Origin: Methylotenera sp.
GTDB lineage: Bacteria > Pseudomonadota > Gammaproteobacteria > Burkholderiales > Methylophilaceae
Length of the DNA stretch: 64,000 nucleotides
Assembly (NCBI RefSeq): GCF_030684185.1
Contig: NZ_JAUXOY010000010.1
Coordinates: 1 to 64,000, forward strand
Direction of reading: 5' to 3'
Part shown: piece after piece, positions 37,193 to 39,247 of the stretch
Layout of the letters: each line of letters opens with the position of its first letter
How positions within the stretch are numbered: the stretch's first letter is position 1
Program-made: the position numbers and the translations under genes
The notes under the pieces: generated by a model
Databases searched by the model: none
What the model saw: the letters and a program-made list of their open reading frames with translations, nothing else
What the model was told of the DNA's origin: nothing

Positions 37193-37939
37193 ATGAACGA
37201 CAATCAGCTCCTCCGCTACAGCCGCCATATCCTGTTGCCTCAAATCAGCTACGAAGGTCAGGAGAAGCTTGTTAACAGCCATGCGCTCATTGTGGGAGCT
37301 GGTGGTTTGGGCTCGCCAGTGGCTTTGTATCTGGCCGCAGCCGGGGTGGGAACGCTCACTATTTGCGATTTTGATGTGGTTGATTTAACTAATTTACAGC
37401 GTCAAATTATTCATACCACGCAGAGCGTCGGCATCAATAAAGCGGTTTCAGCCCAACAAACCATTTATGAAATTAACCCTGAAGTTGCAGTAAAAACAAT
37501 TCAGCAAAAATCTACCGAAGATGAGTTTGTCGGATTGGTTGCAGAAGCGGATGTAGTGATTGATTGCAGTGACAATTTTGCCACGCGCTATACATTGAAC
37601 AGGCTGTGCGTTAGGCTGAAAAAGCCGCTGGTTTCAGGTGCTGCAATTGGGTTTGAAGGGCAAATTACTGTGTACGATATGCGCTCAAGTACTAGTCCGT
37701 GTTACCACTGCTTGTTTCCAGATAATGGCGAAGATACAGATTTGCGCTGCGCTACCAATGGCGTATTTGCGCCCTTGGTGGGCATGATAGGCACTACGCA
37801 AGCGGCTGAAGCTTTGAAACTGTTAATGGGGATTGGAGAGAGTTTGCAAGGGCGATTGTTGTTGCTAGATGCACTTGCGATGGAGTGGCGAACAATCAAG
37901 CTTCGTCGTGACTCAGCGTGTATTGTATGTGGTATTTAA
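37193..37939 (+). CDS. moeB: Molybdopterin-synthase adenylyltransferase / ThiF-like
   Basis: E1-like enzyme that adenylates the C-terminal glycine of a ubiquitin-like sulfur carrier (MoaD or ThiS). The nucleotide-binding GAGGLGSPVALYLAAAGVG, DFDVVDLTNLQRQ with the catalytic Asp/Arg set, and the zinc cysteines CYHC and CIVC are present. Length 248 aa matches MoeB/ThiF/HesA without a rhodanese domain. It could act for thiamine, molybdopterin, or both. It starts six bases after the pilin gene but is functionally unrelated. Confidence 0.88.
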   Translation: MNDNQLLRYSRHILLPQISYEGQEKLVNSHALIVGAGGLGSPVALYLAAAGVGTLTICDFDVVDLTNLQRQIIHTTQSVGINKAVSAQQTIYEINPEVAVKTIQQKSTEDEFVGLVAEADVVIDCSDNFATRYTLNRLCVRLKKPLVSGAAIGFEGQITVYDMRSSTSPCYHCLFPDNGEDTDLRCATNGVFAPLVGMIGTTQAAEALKLLMGIGESLQGRLLLLDALAMEWRTIKLRRDSACIVCGI

Positions 37940-37940
37940 G

Positions 37941-38398
37941 ATTCCTTCCCCTTTTAGGGGGAAGGTTAGGATGGGGGTGTAACAGCGTTTCTAACTAATT
38001 TTTTGATAGTGCATTATAAATTCTTTCAAGTACACCCTCAGCGTTCTGTAGCACCTCGTTATTCCAAAAACGCAAAACCTTCCATCCTTGAGCTTCTAAC
38101 CATGCTGTGCGTTCGCTGTCTTGGTTTTGCATTTCGCTATGCTGACCACCATCGACCTCAATTGCCAATTTTTCTTCAATACAGACAAAGTCTAAAATAT
38201 ATTTTCCAGCGGGATGTTGGCGTCTGAATTTAAGACCTAGCACTTGGCGCATTCTCAAATATTGCCATAAGTGTAATTCGGCCACAGTCATTTCACTGCG
38301 TAATTTACGTGAAAAACTTTTGGTATTAGGTGGAGTTCTGAGCATAGTTAAAGATTGCACCCCCATCCCAGCCTTCCCCCTAAAAAGGGGAAGGAATT
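37941..38398. mobile_element. DUF559 gene bounded by long inverted repeats
   Basis: Left arm 37941-37980 and right arm 38358-38398 are inverted copies of about 40 bp, with four or so mismatches. Each arm is itself a hairpin (CCTTCCCC/GGGGGAAGG) followed by GATGGGGGTG. They enclose exactly one gene. The left arm begins two bases after the moeB stop and the right arm ends seven bases before the stop of the convergent stomatin gene. The arms can also serve both genes as terminators. Confidence 0.75.
37995..38366 (-). CDS. DUF559 (Vsr-like) endonuclease-domain protein
   Basis: A protein of about 115-123 aa of the DUF559 family, related to very-short-patch repair and PD-(D/E)xK nucleases. FRRQHPAGKYILDFVCIEEKLAIEVDGGQH carries the putative metal ligands Asp, Glu and Asp, and WLEAQGWKVLRFWNNEVLQN is the usual ending. 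The listed start lies inside the right inverted repeat; an ATG at 38345 (MLRTPPNTKSFSR) is a more natural start. The biochemical role of the family is not settled; homing or repair activity is possible. Confidence 0.85.
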   Translation of the reverse strand: MGVQSLTMLRTPPNTKSFSRKLRSEMTVAELHLWQYLRMRQVLGLKFRRQHPAGKYILDFVCIEEKLAIEVDGGQHSEMQNQDSERTAWLEAQGWKVLRFWNNEVLQNAEGVLERIYNALSKN

Positions 38399-38404
38399 AA
38401 ACGC

Positions 38405-39247
38405 CTACTTTCCGCCCACCAAGCTTTTAACCGCACCCACTAAATCACCTGGCATCATGACAATTTTGCTATTTTCAGAGACTGATATTTTTTGCAAGGC
38501 CGTAATGTAGCGATCGCCCAATAAGAACATAGCGGATGCGTTATTTTCTTTTACCGCTTCGGTAATAAATTTAATCGATTCAGCAGATGCTTTTGCAGCC
38601 ACCATTTGTGCTTCTGCATCTTTTCGTGCGGCTTCTAGACGTGCTTCTGCGTTCAAAATAAGCGATTGCTTGGCACCTTCAGCTTCGGTTACTACAGCCA
38701 CACGTTCGCGCTCCGCCGCGGCTTGTCTTTCCATCGCTTCTTGCATGTTGTGCGAGGGTTTGATGTCTTGAATTTCTACTGATTTAACCGTTAAACCCCA
38801 GTCTAGCGCCTCGTCAGCAATGGCGATTTTTAGCTCAGCCTTAATGCGGTCACGTGAGGTAAGCGCTTGGTTTAAGTCCATACCGCCAATAATCGAACGT
38901 AAGCTGGTTTGCACCATGTTACGCATGGCTTCGCGGAAGTTTTCAATGCCATACACAGCGCGTTCAATATTGCTTACTTTAATAAATGCAATTGCGTTGG
39001 CTAAAATCACTGCGTTGTCACGCGTAATCACCTCTTGCTCTGGCACATCTAAAATAATATCTTTGGTGGTGACTTTGTAGGTGACTTTGGTGAATAGCGG
39101 ATTAATGACATGCAGGCCAGGTGAAAGGACGCCAGCAAACTTACCTAGTCGCTCCACGACCCATTCCTCGCCTTGCGGCACAATGCGGATGCCTTTAAAG
39201 GCAAGAATAACCGCAACAATGACTAAAATACCTGATAACTCGAACAT
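38405..39247 (-). CDS. SPFH/stomatin-like membrane protein (QmcA type)
   Basis: A 280-aa protein with one N-terminal helix (LSGILVIVAVILAFKGI) and an SPFH/band-7 domain (VPQGEEWVVERLGKFAGVLSPGLHVINPLF to about 200). A C-terminal helical region follows (ERERVAVVTEAEGAKQSLILNAEARLEAARKDAEAQ) that drives oligomerisation. It pairs with the NfeD-like gene upstream on the same strand, as qmcA and ybbJ do in E. coli. These pairs organise membrane microdomains and quality control. Confidence 0.9.
   Translation of the reverse strand: MFELSGILVIVAVILAFKGIRIVPQGEEWVVERLGKFAGVLSPGLHVINPLFTKVTYKVTTKDIILDVPEQEVITRDNAVILANAIAFIKVSNIERAVYGIENFREAMRNMVQTSLRSIIGGMDLNQALTSRDRIKAELKIAIADEALDWGLTVKSVEIQDIKPSHNMQEAMERQAAAERERVAVVTEAEGAKQSLILNAEARLEAARKDAEAQMVAAKASAESIKFITEAVKENNASAMFLLGDRYITALQKISVSENSKIVMMPGDLVGAVKSLVGGK

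Follow-up and report, generated by a model that had tools for sequence, protein, structure and literature searches.

The stretch analysed here, the window, comprises the first 64,000 nucleotides of contig NZ_JAUXOY010000010.1 of a Methylotenera sp. assembly. At positions 37,941 to 38,398, a small gene for a DUF559 protein lies between two inverted, hairpin-forming arms, and the unit fits between two convergent host genes. A first-pass annotation made from the letters alone had described this layout, and it was confirmed. The arms form a longer inverted repeat of 35 nt with 89% identity (37948-37982 / 38355-38389) and a shorter one of 21 nt with 90% identity (37941-37961 / 38377-38397), each of the two arms folds separately into a hairpin, and both contain GGATGGGGGTG, the common tail that had been noticed earlier. 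The features are as follows.

37193..37939, + strand: moeB-type ThiF-family gene, host flank, convergent, stop at 37939
37941..37982, + strand: left arm (triplex motif), tail directed at the gene
37944-37951, + strand: pyrimidine (Py) stem of left arm, CCTTCCCC
37952-37957, + strand: loop of left arm
37958-37965, + strand: purine (Pu) stem of left arm, GGGGAAGG
37966-37968, + strand: linker of left arm, TTA
37969-37978, + strand: third-strand tail of left arm, GGATGGGG(GT), directed at the gene
37995..38366, - strand: DUF559 open reading frame (PD-(D/E)XK, Vsr/homing-endonuclease-like), 123 aa counted from the first ATG
38355..38398, - strand: right arm (triplex motif), tail directed at the gene
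38394-38387, - strand: Py stem of right arm
38379-38372, - strand: Pu stem of right arm
38371-38369, - strand: linker of right arm, CTG
38368-38361, - strand: tail of right arm, GGATGGGG, directed at the gene
38405..39247, - strand: SPFH/Band_7 protein gene, host flank, convergent, stop at 38405

The earlier observation that the gene starts within one arm is probably wrong. The first ATG called (38364-38366) falls in the right-arm tail, and alignment of relatives places the start at the next Met (38345), just beyond the arm. This Met is probably the true start, and the start inside the arm is likely an artefact of the ORF caller.

The arms and the enzyme

Each arm consists of a Py/Pu hairpin, three bases and a purine-rich, G-rich tail. 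The window tail, GGATGGGGG / GGATGGGG, reads as the mirror of the purine stem GGGGAAGG, in which each A is faced by A or T, and each arm is therefore a potential intrastrand triplex, a feature absent from the first-pass annotation. Both arms thus combine the Py/Pu hairpin and mirroring third strand of the published PIT/TM repeat, and we assign them, from this layout, to that repeat and to the purine-motif class of intrastrand triplexes. A triplex-motif (TM) scanner that was blind to the gene returned two matches in the window, which were the two arms, inverted and with tails inward, and the arm-core pattern occurs at only these 2 places in 64 kb, where 0 were expected (none in shuffles). Among 116 arms picked without any tail criterion, tails fitted their own stems better (5.81 of 8) than did tails swapped between loci (5.23; permuted maximum, 5.46). 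Triplex formation in vitro has been reported for the TM_ECO single strand, while others did not see a stable triplex in vivo (PMC4666352). Such repeats have been reported in more than 260 genomes, and Holder et al. (2015) counted 23 TM copies in E. coli K-12, ten of which form five inverted pairs; they linked the motif to instability and found no link of TM repeats to mobile elements (PMC4666352).

The ORF between the arms matched DUF559 (PF04480) with 148.8 bits, against a curated cut-off of 20.6 (E 6e-44, Pfam profile search). The DUF559 family is large and has no established biological role. Residues E29, D58, E69, D71 and H75 were invariant in 12 diverse members, and dN/dS ratios of 0.02-0.23 indicate purifying selection. 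The AlphaFold model of the window protein is of modest confidence (pLDDT 70.6), yet it matches a solved homologue: the fold matches were, in order, the gonococcal DUF559 structure 3hrl, the homing endonuclease I-Bth0305I (3r3p), which is the closest fold of known function, and Vsr (1cw0). The fold and the conserved acidic residues place the protein among the PD-(D/E)XK enzymes, with catalysis predicted. In profile searches the gene matched only DUF559/MTES_1575, with no match to an HUH tyrosine transposase (TnpA-REP), and the unit contained no DDE or other known transposase domain. A local search found no cognate cytosine methyltransferase near the unit, whose neighbours are the moeB and SPFH/NfeD genes. 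The Caulobacter DUF559 protein VsrA reportedly acts in a Vsr-like manner and triggers a DNA damage response upon loss of a cytosine methyltransferase (PMC12907096).

Association of DUF559 genes with triplex motifs

The scan for arms at other DUF559 loci used a scanner that allowed longer linkers, with a threshold of 14. At least one arm-like motif was found beside 99 of 113 strong loci from several phyla, on both sides in 56, whereas control ORFs from the same order (n=459) had motifs on both sides in 0 cases, on one side in 6 and on none in 453. The background was 2 TMs in 400 kb. The numbers of loci with motifs on two, one or no sides were as follows.

Genus: 9, 1 and 1
Order: 15, 13 and 1
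Phylum: 12, 12 and 4
Phylum of genome G171: 12, 14 and 4
Plasmid and phage records: 4, 1 and 4

At about half of the loci, an arm was detectable on one side only or on none, and the arm scan detected no arm at some, among them a Geobacillus plasmid and a human-gut phage record. Within the genus, stand-alone DUF559 genes were flanked by such arms. The first-pass annotation had staked its suggestion on arms occurring at other DUF559 genes, and they flank most of them; by this comparison, gene and arms are associated in several phyla.

Not counted among the 113 strong loci are L025-L027, three large proteins with weak partial matches; these were the only armless ones among fused DUF559 genes. Fused genes were considered as an armless control and rejected, the strong ones being in-frame cassettes with a long-linker arm class; each of the strong embedded copies in the genus (n=6) had at least one arm. 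The second DUF559 gene of the window's genome (L002, C10:411733-415044) lies in frame within a Type ISP restriction-modification enzyme, between perfect inverted arms of 29 nt of the long-linker class (CCCCTTC..GAAGGGG, about 14 nt, GGGGTAG). In most Proteobacteria the arms face inward, but outward-facing arms are frequent in Deinococcus and in the phylum of G171. At L141, L146, L150 and L160, which belong to other phyla, the tails are directed away from the gene, opposite to those of the window.

Arm distance and nuclease distance were correlated (Mantel r 0.48), with 0 of 2000 permutations as high. The correlation was 0.49 for pairs from different taxon groups, and permutation within groups likewise gave no value as high. 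In addition, two Methylotenera-type genomes carry two DUF559 clades each, every clade with its own arm class. By comparison, arm and protein thus co-vary.

TM copy number was also related to the gene. Outside the units, the median was 5.5 TMs in the 10 genus genomes with a stand-alone DUF559 gene (range, 1-12) and 0 in the 42 without one, of which 31 had none (p 1.5e-6, kinship ignored); with only genomes at least 90% complete, p was 3e-5, again ignoring kinship. Two genomes contradict a strict rule: G040, an incomplete assembly with 23 TMs, and G022, whose contig stops inside an arm. The genus contained 23 solo inward TM pairs without a gene, 13 of them with a spacer of 27-29 nt, and the spacer was about 26-27 nt in 3 of 4 E. 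coli pairs examined. Their layout is the autonomous/non-autonomous one of REPIN and RAYT. Rhizobial RIME repeats may perhaps be such miniature pairs.

E. coli K-12 contains both a DUF559 gene, ycjD (so annotated), and 23 TMs. The ycjD gene adjoins the published TM_ECO 9 (1351204-1351239), and its end falls within an arm-like remnant. TMs are also kept by E. coli strains that lack ycjD. Since gene and repeats, compared across many bacteria, come and go together, a widespread orphan repeat family appears to have a partner enzyme.

Gain, loss and exchange of cassettes

The first-pass annotation proposed that nuclease and arms move as a unit and that empty sites should be sought. Such sites were found. 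Between moeB and the SPFH gene, some relatives have only a short, empty gap, others a single hairpin without a tail, and others a cassette. The cassette is turned opposite ways even in L018 and L016, close relatives whose proteins are 87% identical. A second site, a single orthologous intergenic hot site in 30 relatives from a genus of the same phylum, was found in these states:

Empty, 18-37 bp: 7 genomes
Lone hairpin: 1 genome
Miniature TM pair: 10 genomes
DUF559 cassette type 1: 3 genomes
DUF559 cassette type 2: 7 genomes
Others: 2 genomes

On the tree of the flanking genes, DUF559 presence changed at least 10 times by gain or loss, and well-supported sister species differed in it. Between L236 and L268, whose flanks are 95-97% identical, the change starts within the arm. 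In L287, an inverted element of another kind, 213 bp long (CCATCTCCCCCTCAAGGGGGGAGAT), occupies the hot site and may represent an additional arm class. Genome G439 carries two cassette copies that are 85.5% identical over 490 bp, end at the arms and have unrelated flanks. A search of the moeB site, the hot site and E. coli for target-site duplications yielded no clean one.

At alx-sstT in E. coli, K-12 has a TM pair where other strains have a single hairpin, and the change is bounded by CCCTCTCCC; ordinary deletion between palindromes could also produce a single-hairpin state. At fabI-sapF (L099, L188), ycjD and a TM occupy the position where other phylogroups have the eef efflux operon, and there is therefore no simple empty site there. 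Loss of eef was inferred at least twice by a published study (PMC12817139).

Cassettes were also found in frame inside many different coding genes: LeuRS (two sites), MetH, RecG, HsdR, asparagine synthetase, a DNA methylase and a Type ISP restriction enzyme. The second LeuRS site is empty in L130, whereas L132 has a solo TM there and L150 the complete unit. A domain search found no intein domain in the embedded units. The asparagine synthetase genes of L078 and L080 carry an in-frame DUF559 cassette together with tandem TM units of 41-bp period, and such tandem units recur at a second place in the same gene.

These comparisons show gain, loss, exchange and inversion of cassettes, with breaks that fall at the arms or within them, and the sites concerned may instead hold paired gene-less TMs or a single hairpin. 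Nuclease and arms thus appear to move as a unit, as had been proposed.

As a separate observation, the window's genome contains four near-identical MITE-like elements of ~150 bp that enclose a TM pair (L005-L008, on contigs C8, C10, C10 and C28). Their 19-bp ends, AACCCAGATTTTCCATTAG, also occur at the breakpoint of an interrupted DUF559 copy in the relative L021. A TM pair has apparently been taken up by an IS/MITE family.

Interpretation and relation to known systems

We consider it probable (about 0.68) that the unit at 37941-38398 represents a mobile cassette of wide occurrence, made up of a TM arm, a DUF559 gene and an inverted TM arm, in which the arms act as sites of recognition and landing and as ends for recombination. 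It is best read as a selfish, homing-like nuclease cassette that has given rise to non-autonomous TM derivatives; it would be analogous to RAYT/REPIN but built on an unrelated enzyme. Arm-protein co-variation and the fold favour an action of DUF559 on the TM repeats. The nuclease would cut or nick TM or hairpin DNA, probably when it is single-stranded or extruded, and, as in homing, repair from another TM-flanked copy would then introduce either the cassette or a miniature lacking the gene. Loss would occur by recombination or deletion between the palindromic hairpins, so that one hairpin remains, and ectopic sites may be hairpins that were present beforehand. In-frame insertions would survive because the arms and the gene are open in one frame.

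Alternatively, DUF559 might act like a RAYT, on the folded single-stranded arm during replication, and copy the unit or TM pairs elsewhere; the arms would then be true transposon ends and not homing targets. The hairpin with a conserved tail, the inverted pairs with near-constant spacer, the single-copy enzyme genes, the new sites in unrelated genes and the duplicate at an unrelated site are all consistent with this. However, PD-(D/E)XK enzymes have, to our knowledge, no covalent strand-transfer intermediate, the nearest functional fold is that of a homing endonuclease, and repeated cassette replacement at one site with breaks in the arm is expected of recombination. We therefore regard RAYT-like copying as unlikely. 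Slightly less likely still, the TM repeats could be recombination hot spots moved by another agent, and DUF559 could be a nuclease of defence, mismatch repair or restriction that is carried along between these repeats. The VsrA report, the link of TMs to instability (PMC4666352) and the location of some cassettes within restriction genes agree with such a passenger role, but no other cargo was seen in that role, the same small gene lies between the arms in several phyla, arm and protein co-vary within a genome and between groups, and TMs are fewer where stand-alone DUF559 is absent. It is very improbable that the arms merely serve a resident gene as bidirectional terminators or some other kind of local regulatory hairpin, a reading that their hairpin potential and position between convergent genes might suggest, because the same arms lie in frame inside coding genes and turn over at sites, which refutes a terminator or RNA explanation as the main reading; moreover, the terminator search found no terminator-like site at the arms, the Rfam search gave no match, and earlier work on PIT motifs, as cited in PMC4666352, recorded no promoter or terminator activity.

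A mobile, homing-like cassette would give an explanation both to TM repeats, which are common and tied to genome instability without a known agent, and to DUF559. A broader proposal stands about an even chance. Here the cassettes would form a new and very widespread class of mobile element, whose Vsr/homing-type PD-(D/E)XK nuclease would recognise hairpin arms able to form triplexes and would carry both its own gene and gene-less TM pairs from one hairpin site to another, also in frame in essential genes. If true, the PIT/TM repeats of E. coli, Neisseria and cyanobacteria would be explained by it. The link between TMs and DUF559 would also add a system in which nuclease and repeats have converged on RAYT/REPIN, and a way in which housekeeping enzymes acquire in-frame insertions. 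The link is testable in E. coli K-12, where ycjD and the TMs occur together. TM/PIT repeats are known from E. coli and cyanobacteria, and within the open-access literature searched, which showed no link between the DUF559/COG2852 family and triplex repeats, their spread has not previously been tied to a gene.

The arms share with the PIT/TM_ECO repeats (Hoyne, Maher; Holder et al. 2015, PMC4666352) the Py stem, the Pu stem, the mirror-like third strand and the frequent inverted pairs; those were published as orphan repeats, whereas here they are the arms of a nuclease cassette. Vsr belongs to the same superfamily and is matched by fold, and VsrA carries DUF559 and is linked to DNA damage, but Vsr repairs T:G mismatches left by a cytosine methyltransferase and the window gene lies in repeats with no methyltransferase nearby. 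Unlike insertion sequences and MITEs, the unit has no transposase domain, and neither the moeB site nor the hot site shows a constant target duplication. Rickettsia palindromic elements are likewise kept in frame within essential genes but, unlike the DUF559 cassettes, are not known to encode a nuclease. With homing endonucleases, especially I-Bth0305I (EDxHD/Vsr-like), the cassette shares a small nuclease, for which this is the best fold match of known function, and defined sites, such as the moeB and hot sites, that are empty in relatives. It differs in lying outside any intron or intein, the window unit being intergenic and neither a self-splicing element nor a free-standing phage gene, and in having its own palindromic arms, many different sites and gene-less miniatures. 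The closest parallel in layout is REP/REPIN with RAYT (TnpA-REP), which shares hairpin-plus-tail units, inverted pairs with fixed spacer, dispersed gene-less copies (here the 23 solo pairs of the genus) and one flanked enzyme gene; the window cassette differs in encoding a PD-(D/E)XK nuclease instead of an HUH tyrosine transposase, in having arms with a G-rich triplex tail instead of a GTAG-type tag, and in belonging to a family whose members also lie in frame inside housekeeping genes.
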